Origin: Pseudomonas lini
Lineage (GTDB): Bacteria > Pseudomonadota > Gammaproteobacteria > Pseudomonadales > Pseudomonadaceae
Assembly: GCF_964063345.1 (NCBI RefSeq)
Contig: NZ_OZ061318.1
Coordinates: 5,766,001-5,830,000 of the forward strand
Reading direction: 5' to 3'
Length of the DNA: 64,000 bases
Shown here: positions 15,828-55,779 of the stretch, in pieces
How positions within the stretch are numbered: the first letter of the stretch is position 1
How the letters are laid out: each line of letters begins with the position of its first letter
Position numbers and translations under genes: made by a program
Notes under the pieces: model-generated
Told to the model about the DNA's origin: nothing
Databases searched by the model: none
What the model saw: the letters and a program-made list of their open reading frames with translations, nothing else

Positions 15828-16241
15828 TTACGCGGCGCTGGCCAATGCCAGGGTGGCCTGGGCGTATTTTTGTCGTGGAATCAGCAACTTTGCCGGTGCC
15901 TGAGCCAATTGTTCGGCCAGTGCCAGCGCGGCACTTTCCGCTACGCCGTAACAGCCGGTGCGTTCGAACGCGATATCCGAGTGGTGGCTGAGTTGTGGTT
16001 CATAACCGGCCAATTGTTCGCTGCTGAAATACATCAACGGCAATGCCAGTTGTTCGGCCAGTTCCATCAGGGCCGGCTCTTCGCGCTTGAGGTCGATACT
16101 GGCCAAGGCCTTGATCTCACGAAGCTCGATTTGATGGGCCTGTAACGCCTGATCAAGTAGCGCCCGCAGCGTGCTGACGGGGCAGCCGCGCTGGCAGCCC
16201 AGGCCGACCACCAGGGTCGGCGCTGTGCTGACGTCAGTCAT
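15828..16241 (-). CDS. cobE: Cobalamin biosynthesis protein CobE (CbiG C-terminal-like)
   Basis: 137 residues related to the C-terminal part of CbiG. It begins with APTLVVGLGCQRGCPVSTL and contains LASIDLKREEPALMELAEQL. The role in the aerobic B12 pathway is not firmly established. The frame is open further upstream, but the ATG at 16241 overlaps the stop of cbtA as ATGA, which indicates translational coupling and fixes the start. It sits between the cobalt transporter genes and cobM. Confidence 0.88.
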   Translation of the reverse strand: MTDVSTAPTLVVGLGCQRGCPVSTLRALLDQALQAHQIELREIKALASIDLKREEPALMELAEQLALPLMYFSSEQLAGYEPQLSHHSDIAFERTGCYGVAESAALALAEQLAQAPAKLLIPRQKYAQATLALASAA

Positions 16242-16945
16242 GCGGAGTATTGGCCATCGCTTTTGCGGCGGAACAACCAGGCGCTGATCAGGCCAAGGGC
16301 CAGCCAGAACGCCATGTTGGTCAGCTGCGAGGCGATTTTGAATTGCGCTTCCAGGGCTTCCGGCGCCAGCATCGAATGCACTTCCGGTTGCGGTGCACCG
16401 ATCACATGAGGCACGGCGAGAATCGCCACGCCGAGGATCTTCATCAGCCAGTGGCGGCTGAATACGATGAGCGCGATGCCGACAGCGGTGGATGCGGCAG
16501 TGCCAATCCACCAGATCTGCCGTTGCGCCAGATCTGCTGCGGCAGTGCCCGGTAGCTCAGGTGGCAGGCCGAGGGTTGGCGCCAGCACGAACGTCGCATA
16601 ACCGGCCAGACCCCAGAGCAGGCCTTGAGAGGTACGGCGTGGAGCACGCAAGGTGTAGAGGCCCGCGAGCATCAGGGCGAAACCGACCGCTACCACCAGA
16701 TTGCCGCCGGTGGTCGACAGCACGCGCTGCCAGCCGTCTTCCGGCTCCCATGCTTCGGCGTCGTGGGTGTGAGCGGCGACAGCGCCAGCGTCGTGCTCGT
16801 GGACTTCGACAGCAGCCGGTTCGGATTTTTCGTAGGTCTCGGCCTGCAAAATCAGCGGGGCAACCCAAAAACTTTGCAGCAGGGTCAGCAGCAGGGCGGC
16901 CAGCAACCCGGTGAAACCTGCGGTTTGCGCAATACGCTTGATCAT
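16238..16945 (-). CDS. cbtA: CbtA family cobalt transporter subunit
   Basis: 235 residues with about five hydrophobic spans (GLLAALLLTLLQSFWV, LVVAVGFALMLAGLYTL, LLWGLAGYATFVLAP, TAVGIALIVFS, ILGVAILAVPHVIGAP). Between the first two spans is a His/Asp/Glu-rich loop (EVHEHDAGAVAAHTHDAEA) fit for metal binding. CbtA with CbtB is a predicted cobalt importer found under B12 riboswitches. The start MIKRIAQTAG at 16945 is chosen by family start; the longer in-frame extension would overlap cbtB in full. It ends by ATGA overlap with cobE. Confidence 0.9.
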   Translation of the reverse strand: MIKRIAQTAGFTGLLAALLLTLLQSFWVAPLILQAETYEKSEPAAVEVHEHDAGAVAAHTHDAEAWEPEDGWQRVLSTTGGNLVVAVGFALMLAGLYTLRAPRRTSQGLLWGLAGYATFVLAPTLGLPPELPGTAAADLAQRQIWWIGTAASTAVGIALIVFSRHWLMKILGVAILAVPHVIGAPQPEVHSMLAPEALEAQFKIASQLTNMAFWLALGLISAWLFRRKSDGQYSA

Positions 16946-16956
16946 GTCAGCAGGTC

Positions 16957-17148
16957 TCAATGGCACGGAAAGGCGGAGCTGTGACGGGTGTCGTGCGCGG
17001 CGTTGTGTACCGCTTCGATGTGCGAGAAACCGGCGAAGTACACCAGGCACGCGCCAAGGATCGACGCACAAAAAGCGGCGGTCAGGCGTTGGCTCAAGGT
17101 TGAAGTGGTGCTGGCGGTGGTGCTGGCGGTACTGCTGATGATCGACAT
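16957..17148 (-). CDS. cbtB: CbtB family cobalt transporter subunit
   Basis: 63 residues: a Ser/Thr-rich N-terminus, one transmembrane helix (TAAFCASILGACLVYFAGF) and a His-rich tail (FSHIEAVHNAAHDTRHSS) typical of CbtB, likely a metal-binding mouth for CbtA. The start at 17148 is preceded by a GAGGGAAG ribosome site; the longer frame to 17334 would cross the riboswitch and is rejected. First gene of the riboswitch-controlled leftward operon. Confidence 0.9.
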   Translation of the reverse strand: MSIISSTASTTASTTSTLSQRLTAAFCASILGACLVYFAGFSHIEAVHNAAHDTRHSSAFPCH

Positions 17149-17282
17149 GGCGCTTCCCTCTGGTCTGTCAGCGGGTGAATAGAGCGCATGAAAACCTCCG
17201 CACGTCGGGGCACGCAGAGATTTCAAACAGCGCCCGCCCACCGCGGGTTTGTTATTCAGTGAACGTAAAGTCACTTTGTGTT

Positions 17283-17490
17283 GCGGGCCGGTCTCCGGGC
17301 TCGCGAGGGGCAGGGCTAACGCCGAAACCTGCAAGCATCACCTTCCCATGCCGTGTGACGGGCACAGTGGATCTGACGCTTCACTCGCTTACCGTTGCGG
17401 GGGCAGCACCGGACTGACATGGCTTTGAGTAAAGCACATGATTCACCGGTTTCCCGTTTCACCCTGTGAAGGGCACCCGTAACAAGGTGT
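17283..17490 (-). promoter_or_regulatory. Cobalamin riboswitch controlling cbtB-cbtA-cobE
   Basis: On the minus strand the conserved B12-riboswitch blocks appear in order: GGTGAAACGGGAA, CCGGTG, GTGCTGCCCCCGCAACGGTAA, GGGAAGGTG, and the B12 box AGCCCGGAGACCGGCC at about 17286-17301. The aptamer ends about 135 bp before the cbtB start. It should shut down the cobalt transporter genes when adenosylcobalamin is plentiful. The expression platform (terminator or ribosome-site sequestration) is not resolved. Confidence 0.95.
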
Positions 17491-17552
17491 GTAGGAGAGC
17501 ATGGGCGGGGGTTGGGCGTCAATTGGCAAGGGTTCTCAACTGACACCAAATA

Positions 17553-17688: not shown

Positions 17689-17765
17689 CAGGCTCCTTTG
17701 CCACAGATGATCGCATTCTCCTATAGGACATTGACCCGCCCCCACACGATGCGTAGCCTTGCGCT

Positions 17766-17955
17766 TTCGAGGTTCTTCGGCGTCTGCCGAAGCTAAGAAG
17801 GGAACGCGGTCAATGCCGCGGCTGCCCCCGCAACTGTGAACGGTGATGTTCGCTGCCACGCCACTGCAAGCCCTGATCCATCAGGTTCGCGGGAAGGCGC
17901 AGCAAACGCCAGTCGAGCGATTGGCACACCGTCAGCCAGGAGACCTGCCTCGACA
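17766..17955 (+). promoter_or_regulatory. Cobalamin riboswitch controlling cobW-cobN-chelatase
   Basis: On the plus strand: AAGGGAACGCGG, GGCTGCCCCCGCAACTGTGA, GCGGGAAGGC and the B12 box AGCCAGGAGACCTGCC (about 17934-17949). The cobW start follows about 110 bp later. It is head-to-head with the cbtB riboswitch, about 280 bp apart, so both arms of the B12 region respond to the same ligand. Confidence 0.95.
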
Positions 17956-18066
17956 CAGATTCTCACTTTCAACCGGGCGGGGTGATCCGGTGGCGGAACT
18001 CTTGCGTGCGCACCTGCCGCAGCGATTGTCGTCCCGTATGCCCGCCACCTTGCCAAAGGGCATCCG

Positions 18067-22998: not shown

Positions 22999-23015
22999 AT
23001 CTGTGGCACCGCTAA

Positions 23016-23112
23016 CCTGTGGGAGCGTGGCTTGCCCGCGAAGAGGCCCTAACAATCAACATTGATTTCGACTGAGCGGGCGCCTTCGCAGGCAAGCCAC
23101 GCTCCCACAGGT
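23016..23112. repeat. Paired REP element between cobN and the chelatase AAA+ gene
   Basis: Arms CTGTGGGAGCGTGGCTTGCC and GGCAAGCCACGCTCCCACAG flank about 55 bp, occupying most of the cobN to 23153 gap. Confidence 0.9.
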
Positions 23113-23152: not shown

Positions 23153-24160
23153 ATGACCGACACCCCCCATTTCCCGCTCTCCGCCGTGGTCGGCGCCGAT
23201 GACTTGAAGCTCGCGCTGTACCTGACCGCCATCGACCCGAAAATCGGTGGCGTGCTGATCGAGGGCCCGCGCGGCATGGCCAAATCCACCCTGGCCCGAG
23301 GCTTGGCGGACTTGTTGGCCAGCGGTCAATTCGTCACCTTACCGCTAGGCGCCACCGAAGAACGGCTGGTCGGCACCCTCGACCTAGACGCGGCCCTGAG
23401 CGAGGGGCGCGCACAGTTTTCCCCCGGCGTACTGGCCAAGGCCGACGGCGGCGTGTTGTATGTCGATGAAGTCAATCTGCTGCCCGATCACCTCGTGGAC
23501 TTGCTGCTCGACGTGGCCGCCAGTGGCACCAACCTGATCGAGCGCGACGGGATTTCCCATCGGCATTCGGCGAAGTTTGTGCTGATCGGCACCATGAACC
23601 CGGAAGAGGGCGAATTGCGTCCGCAATTGCTCGACCGCTTTGGCCTGAACGTCGCCCTCAGTGGCCACACCGCACCTGCCGAGCGTGGTCAGATCATCCG
23701 TCGTCGACTGGATTTCGACAGCGACCCGCAAGGGTTCTGCGCCGAGTGGGAAAGCCAGCAACACGCACTGCGCGAGCGTTGTCAAAAGGGGCGCTCGGCA
23801 CTGGCGAACATTCCCCTCGACGATGCCGCGCTGGCGCAAATCACCGAGCGTTGCTTTGCTGCTGGCGTCGATGGTCTGCGGGCCGATCTGGTCTGGTTGC
23901 GTGCTGCTCGGGCTCATGCGGCCTGGCGCGGAGCGAATGCCATTGGCGAAGAAGATATCGACGCGGTCGCCGAGTTTGCCTTGCGTCATCGTCGTCGCGA
24001 ACACTCGCCTCCAATGCCGCAACAATCCCAGGCCCCACAGCCGCCCTCTAACCAGAATCCCAACCCCAGCGAAGGTCAGGGCCAGTGGGGCGAAATGCCC
24101 GCCCAGGCGCTGCCGGTCGGCGCTCGACGTGAAGTGCCGAGCTGGCCAAAAAAGCCCTAG
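23153..24160 (+). CDS. AAA+ chelatase ATPase (ChlI/BchI-like), zero-frame product
   Basis: 335 residues. AAA+ motor of the magnesium/cobalt chelatase class: Walker A GPRGMAKST (residues 38-46), Walker B VLYVDE (about 101-106), GTMNPEEGELRPQLLDRFGL with the sensor/arginine-finger region, then a Pro/Gln/Asn-rich linker (about 290-320). In pseudomonads lacking CobS/CobT this protein is the likely ATPase for CobN. The zero frame ends at a TAG right after an A_AAA_AAG slippery heptamer, and the -1 frame continues into a VWA domain. So the gene probably yields this short AAA+ form and a 557-residue AAA+/VWA fusion. Confidence 0.93.
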   Translation: MTDTPHFPLSAVVGADDLKLALYLTAIDPKIGGVLIEGPRGMAKSTLARGLADLLASGQFVTLPLGATEERLVGTLDLDAALSEGRAQFSPGVLAKADGGVLYVDEVNLLPDHLVDLLLDVAASGTNLIERDGISHRHSAKFVLIGTMNPEEGELRPQLLDRFGLNVALSGHTAPAERGQIIRRRLDFDSDPQGFCAEWESQQHALRERCQKGRSALANIPLDDAALAQITERCFAAGVDGLRADLVWLRAARAHAAWRGANAIGEEDIDAVAEFALRHRRREHSPPMPQQSQAPQPPSNQNPNPSEGQGQWGEMPAQALPVGARREVPSWPKKP

Positions 24161-24195
24161 GCATTCGCCCTCGATCAGACGCGGGGGCGAATGCC
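24148..24195 (+). promoter_or_regulatory. Programmed -1 ribosomal frameshift signal
   Basis: Slippery heptamer A_AAA_AAG at 24148-24154 is in the correct phase with the AAA+ frame (codons CCA AAA AAG). After a 5-nt spacer there is a perfect 11-bp stem, GGCATTCGCCC (24160-24170) with GGGCGAATGCC (24185-24195). It can be lengthened by three inner pairs to leave an 8-nt loop. The zero-frame stop TAG (24158-24160) is two codons after the heptamer. A -1 slip enters exactly the frame of the VWA region. All elements are seen directly; the frameshift itself is inferred. Confidence 0.85.
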
Positions 24196-24825
24196 AGACC
24201 CCGCGCAGGACGACTGGATCACGGTAAACAGGGCAAGCGTCACGCAGCCCTGAGCGGATCGATCAATTGGCCCGGCACCTTGCTTAATGGCCGACCGCGT
24301 CAACGCGACGATGTGCTGTTTCACCTGCGCACCCGCAGTCCTCATGAATTATGGCTGGTGATTGTCGACGCCTCGGCCTCGACCCGGCGCCATCACGCGT
24401 TGAGCGATGCCAAGGGTTTGCTGGCGCAACTGTTCGACGATGCCTATCGACAGCGTGCGCGCTTGGCTTTGCTGACCGCCAGCGGCCATGTGCCGAAGTG
24501 GCAGGTGCAAGGGTTGAAAGCCTCGGCTGGCTTGCGTGACTGGCTCGACGGACTCGGTGCCGGCGGCGGAACGCCGATGCTGGCGGCGCTGGGTGAAGCA
24601 GGGCACTGGCTGGCGGCACGGCAAAAGCGCTTTCCGGCAGAGCAGCAACGGCTGTTGCTGGTGACGGATGGACGGGTGAAGGAGTGGTCAACGTTGCCGG
24701 CGCTGGAGTGTCCGGGGTTGCTGATCGACATTGAGCGCGGCCCGATTCATCTTGGCCGGGCAAAGGTGTTGGCAGCGCAGTTGCAGGTTGATTATCGACA
24801 TATCGATGAGCTGATTTCAGGTTGA
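24154..24825 (+). CDS. VWA (ChlD/CobT-like) half of chelatase, read by -1 frameshift
   Basis: This frame is open from 24133 and has no convincing ribosome site of its own; the first start-type codon near the domain is a TTG at 24280, already inside conserved sequence (DWPGTLLNGRPRQRDD). Read by frameshift from 23153 it adds 223 residues after K334, giving a 557-residue fusion. A basic linker (KKALGIRPRSDAGANARP) is followed by the VWA domain with the MIDAS motif DASAS (D406, S408, S410 of the fusion), GAGGGTPML and LLLVTDGRV. The VWA part should contact CobN and the AAA+ ring. An independent start at 24280 would give a protein of 181 residues, which cannot be excluded. Confidence 0.85.
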   Translation, partial: ALGIRPRSDAGANARPRAGRLDHGKQGKRHAALSGSINWPGTLLNGRPRQRDDVLFHLRTRSPHELWLVIVDASASTRRHHALSDAKGLLAQLFDDAYRQRARLALLTASGHVPKWQVQGLKASAGLRDWLDGLGAGGGTPMLAALGEAGHWLAARQKRFPAEQQRLLLVTDGRVKEWSTLPALECPGLLIDIERGPIHLGRAKVLAAQLQVDYRHIDELISG

Positions 24826-24850
24826 GTTCTGTACTGACAGTATTGACCCC

Positions 24851-24916
24851 ATCGCGAGCAGGCTCGCTCCTCACATTGGAATGCGTTCTCCTGTGGGAGC
24901 GAGCCTGCTCGCGATG
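24851..24916. repeat. Paired REP element
   Basis: Short REPIN with arms ATCGCGAGCAGGCTCGCTCC and GGGAGCGAGCCTGCTCGCGA and an inner spacer of about 25 bp. Confidence 0.88.
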
Positions 24917-24999
24917 GCATCACTTGGGTATCGGATAATCACGGCGACCCCACATCGCTGCCCTATGCTGCTGTAAGCAAGCCATCACAGGAGTGACCC

Positions 25000-55573: not shown

Positions 55574-55603
55574 AACCCCCGGTCGGGGAGCCGACCGGGG
55601 GTT
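55574..55603 (-). terminator. Attenuator terminator of the DAHP synthase leader
   Basis: 13-bp GC-rich stem AACCCCCGGTCGG/CCGACCGGGGGTT, loop of 4 nt, followed on the minus strand by TTTGTTTTTTC. It lies 48 bp after the stop of the 42-residue leader peptide and well before the structural gene, as expected for an attenuator. Confidence 0.92.
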
Positions 55604-55650
55604 GAAAATTCTCTGGTGGCGACCCGTTTAAAGTGGGCGCCGTGTGGGTA

Positions 55651-55779
55651 TCAGGCGCGCCAGTGGCTAAACCAATACCCAAAATAAAAGCTGACCGAAG
55701 CACAAACGTCGTTCGCCCGGGCAGCCGCAACCGAGCGCGGGGCGCTGGCGGTACGAAGCTGTGAGAGGGCGTTGAGCAT
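55651..55779 (-). CDS. Aromatic leader peptide (attenuation)
   Basis: 42 residues, ATG 55779 with a GGAGA ribosome site. The 3' end encodes SFYFGYWFSHW, seven aromatic residues in eleven, then RA and a TGA. The Gly-Tyr codons (GGGTAT) can pair over 7 bp with TACCCA just after the stop, giving a 1:2-type alternative fold. The terminator follows at 55574-55603. Ribosome stalling for lack of Phe, Tyr or Trp tRNA should free transcription into the DAHP synthase gene. Confidence 0.85.
   Translation of the reverse strand: MLNALSQLRTASAPRSVAAARANDVCASVSFYFGYWFSHWRA

Follow-up and report, generated by a model that had tools for sequence, protein, structure and literature searches.

The window, a stretch of 64,000 nucleotides from Pseudomonas lini, holds next to cobN an open reading frame for an AAA+ protein that ends at a TAG, and a VWA domain that follows in the -1 frame. 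This arrangement raises the question of how the VWA half comes to be translated. The initial annotation had proposed a -1 programmed frameshift, and our comparisons lead to the same answer: -1 programmed frameshifting very probably provides, from this one gene (fs-chlD), two subunits of the CobN cobaltochelatase, one with AAA+ only (335 residues) and one with AAA+ and VWA (557 residues). The frameshift is a correct rediscovery; it is already published for Pseudomonas.

Layout of the locus and of the junction

The features of the locus are listed in Table 1. The AAA+ half carries the Walker A motif GPRGMAKS and the Walker B motif DEVN. The zero-frame product has 335 residues and the shifted product 334 + 223 = 557, and translation of both frames confirmed the sizes initially given. 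The riboswitch upstream of cobW would control cobW, cobN, and fs-chlD together.

Table 1. Coordinates of the features of the fs-chlD locus within the window.
Feature	Position	Strand	Evidence
Cobalamin riboswitch, 5' of cobW-cobN-fs-chlD	17753..17966	+	Rfam RF00174, 104.5 bits (gathering 31.5)
cobW, 353 aa	18067..19128	+	TIGR02475, 534.6 bits (cut-off 332.1)
cobN, cobaltochelatase large subunit, 1288 aa	19132..22998	+	TIGR02257, 1723.8 bits (cut-off 822.05)
ChlI-like AAA+ subunit (zero-frame product), 335 aa	23153..24160	+	ORF; PF07728, PF17863, PF01078
5' stretch, putative function	24131..24147	+	low synonymous change among relatives
Slippery heptamer A_AAA_AAG	24148..24154	+	sequence reading; kept in 257/260 genus loci
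Zero-frame stop TAG, one codon past heptamer	24158..24160	+	sequence reading
Hairpin 5' arm (core 24160-24170, extension to 24173)	24160..24173	+	folding, covariation
Hairpin 3' arm (core 24185-24195, extension 24182-24184)	24182..24195	+	folding, covariation
-1 frame extension, 223 codons + stop	24154..24825	+	conserved as protein from first codons
VWA domain in -1 frame, DASAS metal-site motif	24355..24672	+	PF13519, 1.9e-07, residues 68-173

The codons at the junction read CCA (24146-48), AAA (24149-51), AAG (24152-54), CCC (24155-57), and TAG (24158-60). Since CCA, AAA, and AAG are read from 24146, A_AAA_AAG lies in phase with the AAA+ frame, as had been claimed. The spacer of five nucleotides (24155-24159) was found as described. 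The zero-frame stop is indeed close by; more precisely, one sense codon (CCC) intervenes between it and the heptamer. The heptamer by itself is no rarer than chance, with seven occurrences in the window against 6.0 expected, so that the weight of the argument rests on its phase, its position, the hairpin, and conservation. An anticodon-loop pattern search for a lysine tRNA with the anticodon CUU gave four matches, none of which was called a tRNA.

The hairpin, 5 nt further on, would hold up ribosomes that have reached the heptamer in the AAA+ frame. In some of them, both lysyl-tRNAs would slip back by one base and pair anew on AAA AAA. Ribosomes that stay in frame would terminate one codon on and release the 335-residue ChlI/CobS-like AAA+ subunit; shifted ribosomes would continue in the VWA frame and complete the 557-residue ChlD/CobT-like subunit. 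From the sequence we infer the slip in this strain, its rate, and the participation of both products in cobalt insertion by CobN. Both products have the AAA+ module with its Walker motifs; a ring would thus consist of like AAA+ units, and the proportion that bear a VWA tail would depend on the slip rate.

Conservation of the junction and of the downstream hairpin

The VWA half was matched in 373 of the 398 genomes of the genus that were searched. We read 260 of these loci; of the 113 left out, 111 are close relatives of the window. The -1 offset between the two halves is present in 255 of the 260 genomes, and 252 loci have the canonical layout of heptamer, one codon, and stop, with VWA in the -1 frame. 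The canonical loci were chosen by the heptamer, and the unselected figure for its conservation is 257/260; the invariance seen within the 252 (of the heptamer, with zero synonymous change, and of a preceding CCA or GCA) follows from this selection. In the AAA+ genes of the relatives, CCA makes up 11.4% of proline, GCA 8.2% of alanine, and AAA 29.5% of lysine codons. No second in-frame A_AAA_AAG was seen within any of the 252 canonical genes. Scanned for motifs, 251 of these loci have Walker A, all 252 have Walker B, and 249 have DxSxS.

The remaining eight loci differ in several ways. Five retain the heptamer (L041, L046, L257, L205, and L214): in L257 the stop follows it immediately, and in L205 and L214 the frame is broken elsewhere. 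In L041 and L046, whose heptamer lies at 1492 on the coding strand, the near stop has become CAG and the next stop comes five codons later, within the hairpin, with heptamer and -1 frame kept; the exact position of the stop is thus not strictly conserved. Heptamer loss in close homologues, for which the initial annotation had proposed to look, was confined to three loci (L166, L167, and L252). All three have additional frame breaks and therefore look like sequencing errors or decay. No clean in-frame fusion of AAA+ and VWA was found among the 260 loci. Long open frames hinted at such a fusion in four cases, of which L040, L052, and L134 proved canonical; in L252, the AAA+ half spans three frames.

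Among 99 genomes of the family, 52 gave a match; 30 places yielded loci, of which 24 were newly read, and 22 places were left out. All 24 newly read loci carry the signal: 20 belong to four other genera and four to the genus of the window, three of these repeating genomes already read. In a scan of 229 genomes at the class level with TIGR02442 (at 1e-40), 14 matched, and both halves were present in 11 of the 18 loci fetched, including the window's own. Six of these loci have a single frame (L265, L266, L274, L277, L278, and L281), L273 falls in no clear class, and three besides the window are split with a -1 offset (L272, L275, and L276). L275 and L276 have A_AAA_AAG, one codon, and TGA, and their downstream fold beats 195 of 200 shuffles and all 200, respectively. 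The junction of L272 (around 1608, reverse strand) reads A10G followed by GCC TGA.

The 11-bp core of the downstream stem pairs GGCATTCGCCC (24160-24170) with GGGCGAATGCC (24185-24195), and U-G, C-G, and G-C pairs extend it to 14 bp. Reading and folding both returned this stem, which had been described in the same form. The minimum free energy of 24155-24215 is -30.7 kcal/mol, compared to -19.2 +/- 3.0 for shuffled sequences, none of 200 being as good. Among the canonical loci, a single register without gaps accommodates the stem in 221 of 252, with six or all of the seven core pairs formed; the other 31 do not fit. Covariation was measured on 105 diverse sequences drawn from the 221 fitting loci, a choice that favors the structure. 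In this set, both sides had changed at 10 of 14 pairs; 85.9% of cells were paired, versus 37.5-49.5% in slid registers; and none of 500 shuffles scored as high on any of the five measures. The control slid by -3, however, outnumbered the structure in cells with double changes (42 vs. 35). RNAalifold recovered an 8-bp core with double changes at four pairs. When sequences were folded singly, the consensus hairpin was not the minimum-energy structure in L132, L134, L141, L143, and several others. Outside the positions used for selection, third bases that form part of the stem are held: Asp 13 of the extension is encoded by GAT in 174 of 175 sequences, whereas elsewhere in the VWA frame GAT and GAC are used about equally. 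The gene thus has the downstream RNA structure of fs-chlD genes, for which a stimulatory role is predicted. We also considered a pseudoknot between the loop and CCCCGCG (24199-24205); in relatives, the complementarity was 4.86, against 4.88 +/- 0.06 for swapped partners, and the pseudoknot is unsupported.

The frame change, its alternatives, and the sequence upstream

The AAA+ and VWA halves very probably form one shifted gene, and a separate start for the VWA half is rejected. Were there two genes, translation of VWA would begin at a separate ribosome site, or ribosomes would re-initiate once past the TAG. The start listed for the VWA part alone is a TTG at 24280, which opens a 181-aa ORF; there is no earlier one in the -1 frame, and 150 of the 252 relatives have TTG in that column. 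However, the -1 frame is conserved at many of the 42 residues that precede this TTG, which means that the region is translated. Among the 252 canonical loci, A1 is conserved in 243, L2 in 245, I4 in 239, A14 in 247, G19 in 245, G27 in 249, and W39 in all 252; R5 is likewise conserved. Ahead of the VWA core strand, no column holds a start codon in as many as 60% of these loci, in agreement with the initial claim that VWA has no ribosome site of its own. Two genes would also leave the heptamer, the spacing of the stop, and the covarying hairpin unexplained, and we consider this arrangement very improbable.

Slippage of the transcript on the A run, in place of ribosomal slippage, is only slightly less improbable. 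It is known on runs of nine A, according to passages of PMC5009743, and it could also act on the A10 run of the class-level relative L272; but the run in the window has only six A, and an in-phase A_AAA_AAG with a covarying hairpin just downstream is the arrangement that tandem slippage of two tRNAs requires. That the frame change is a sequencing error, or the mark of a pseudogene in decay, has a negligible probability. Errors or decay do affect this gene, as the extra frame breaks in five loci (L166, L167, L205, L214, and L252) indicate, but neither would account for a -1 offset shared by nearly all the genomes read, nor for Walker and DxSxS motifs as intact as those counted above.

The heptamer is preceded by a stretch of low synonymous change that reaches a Glu codon 17 nt upstream, with 0.058 changes per sequence. 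None of the 42 two-fold background columns is as low (minimum 0.084), whereas single four-fold columns go down to 0.032. Where this column encodes Glu, loci of the TAG group use GAA in 98 of 106 cases, and those of the TGA group use GAG in 74 of 81. Across the TAG group the column changed four times, and the other 17 conserved Glu columns 11-34 times; across the TGA group it changed seven times, compared to 2-31 times in 11 others, one of which changed less (2). GAG followed by GTN forms GAGGT or GAGGTG 11-12 nt upstream of the heptamer in 64 of 107 TGA, 3 of 142 TAG, and 1 of 3 TAA loci. Six-base Shine-Dalgarno-like matches occur there in 19.8% of loci, compared to 0.8% for control stretches within these genes. 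The E. coli dnaX cassette has a 5' Shine-Dalgarno stimulator about 10 nt upstream of its slip site. This strain has no counterpart, its sequence at 24131-24136 being GAAGTG, whereas many TGA-group loci have the Shine-Dalgarno-like GAGGTG, and GAGGT is found there in 68 of 251 relatives.

A 5' stimulator that pairs with rRNA might offset a weaker hairpin and so hold the subunit ratio steady, the two groups being tuned in opposite directions; we regard this as possible but rather unlikely. Over a fixed 36-nt stretch, in which hairpins in another register may be missed, the mean hairpin energy is -27.3 kcal/mol in the 139 TAG loci without a match and -18.5 in the TGA loci. TGA loci share the mean of -18.5 whether they have a match (64 loci) or not (43 loci), which lowers the odds of a trade-off. 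On a tree of 251 of the 252 canonical loci, an energy difference as large as the observed one arose under simulated independent evolution in 4.1 and 2.5% of cases (one-sided, two rates) or 11.6 and 6.8% (two-sided). The link between the 5' element and hairpin strength is only suggestive, resting as it does on six changes of state on this tree. A literature search, beyond whose reach the main 2020 fs-chlD paper lay, returned no report of a Shine-Dalgarno element in chlD. The synonymous constraint is a lead that the published passages considered here do not mention.

Chelatase subunits and published fs-chlD genes

By sequence, the nearest solved structures to the AAA+ half are ChlI/BchI (6l8d, 8osf, and 1g8p), and the nearest to the VWA half is the magnesium-chelatase 60 kDa subunit (2x31_A). 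Scored apart against TIGR02442 (putative cobaltochelatase), the halves reach 412.3 and 60.9 bits, with a whole-protein cut-off of 779.45, and their matches fall in order along the profile. CobT (PF06213) had no match in the whole genome, while the control genome of Caulobacter vibrioides did match; the best match to CobS in the genome was 29 bits, against a cut-off of 558.55. No second ChlI-like protein was found in the genome, the next AAA+ match having 29% identity (4.1e-7). The gene is thus linked to cobN in a genome with neither cobS nor cobT and no separate chlI, which supports the earlier suggestion that one gene beside cobN replaces CobS and CobT.

CobT exceeds its cut-off in 5 of 99 family genomes and in none of ten from the window's genus. 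CobN exceeds its cut-off in all eight VWA-bearing genomes that were tested. Of 25 VWA-less genomes, 20 were tested: 11 had no CobN match, seven had partial matches below the cut-off, and two were over it, with CobN at most 730 bases from the contig start in both. Seven VWA-less genomes of the genus (G060, G082, G180, G185, G242, G260, and G317) encode a CobN-like protein in a frame of 1408-1491 aa that scores below the CobN cut-off and may be an HmuS-type or BchH-like chelatase.

In CobS/CobT and ChlI/ChlD, as in fs-chlD, a small AAA+ subunit and a larger AAA+/VWA subunit act with CobN or ChlH. These systems have two genes, whereas fs-chlD is one; CobT, moreover, has its own Pfam family, which is absent from this genome. 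fs-chlD is a clean case of one gene that serves a complex with two of its subunits at a fixed ratio. It is also a good model for asking how a frameshift rate can stay constant when the hairpin, the stop codon, and the sequence upstream vary. In this genus, the VWA half should not be annotated as a separate or broken gene.

Frameshifting in chlD-type genes had been cited as a precedent, which is right but understated, given that passages of PMC3711429, PMC5009743, and PMC9227772 place it in Pseudomonas itself. Those of PMC3711429 (2013) describe a cluster of 23 magnesium chelatase genes with a -1 frameshift from six genera including Pseudomonas, three cassettes of which shift 63, 40, and 10% in E. 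coli; the reporters named there have A7, A9, and A11 runs, and an A6G site is not named in these passages. PMC5009743 (2016) describes strong purifying selection on A_AAA_AAR in Pseudomonas and other genera, and prints a P. protegens stem-loop, with the suggestion of triplex formation; as printed, it reads nearly identically to the window's junction, a resemblance that, together with the Pseudomonas sRNA P15 in the window, points to this genus. fs-chlD supplies the small and medium cobaltochelatase subunits according to PMC9227772 (2022), which also lists P. aeruginosa. As far as these passages go, the published cluster and the gene described here agree in gene, genus, A_AAA_AAR site, downstream stem, and the supply of small and medium subunits from one gene, and there is no difference in kind. 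What we add are counts over 260 species genomes, the covariation, the finding that VWA has no conserved start, and the synonymous constraint 5' of the heptamer.

The N-terminal part common to the two dnaX proteins of E. coli is an AAA+ module. In passages of PMC5009743, dnaX resembles fs-chlD in its A_AAA_AAG heptamer, its downstream stem, and its short and long proteins with a common N-terminal part; however, the shift gives the short product in dnaX and the long product in fs-chlD.

Several further elements were noted in the window. A second cobalamin riboswitch (17269-17495, reverse strand; RF00174, 95.1 bits) diverges from the one upstream of cobW and points to a gene for a CbtA-type cobalt transporter (16238-17071, reverse strand). 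Two inverted repeats that look REP-like flank fs-chlD: one lies between cobN and fs-chlD (23015-23112; 48-nt arms, 81% complementary) and the other directly 3' of fs-chlD (24844-24922; 27-nt arms, 93% complementary). The Pseudomonas sRNA P15 is located at 55576-55693 on the reverse strand (RF00627, 123.7 bits).
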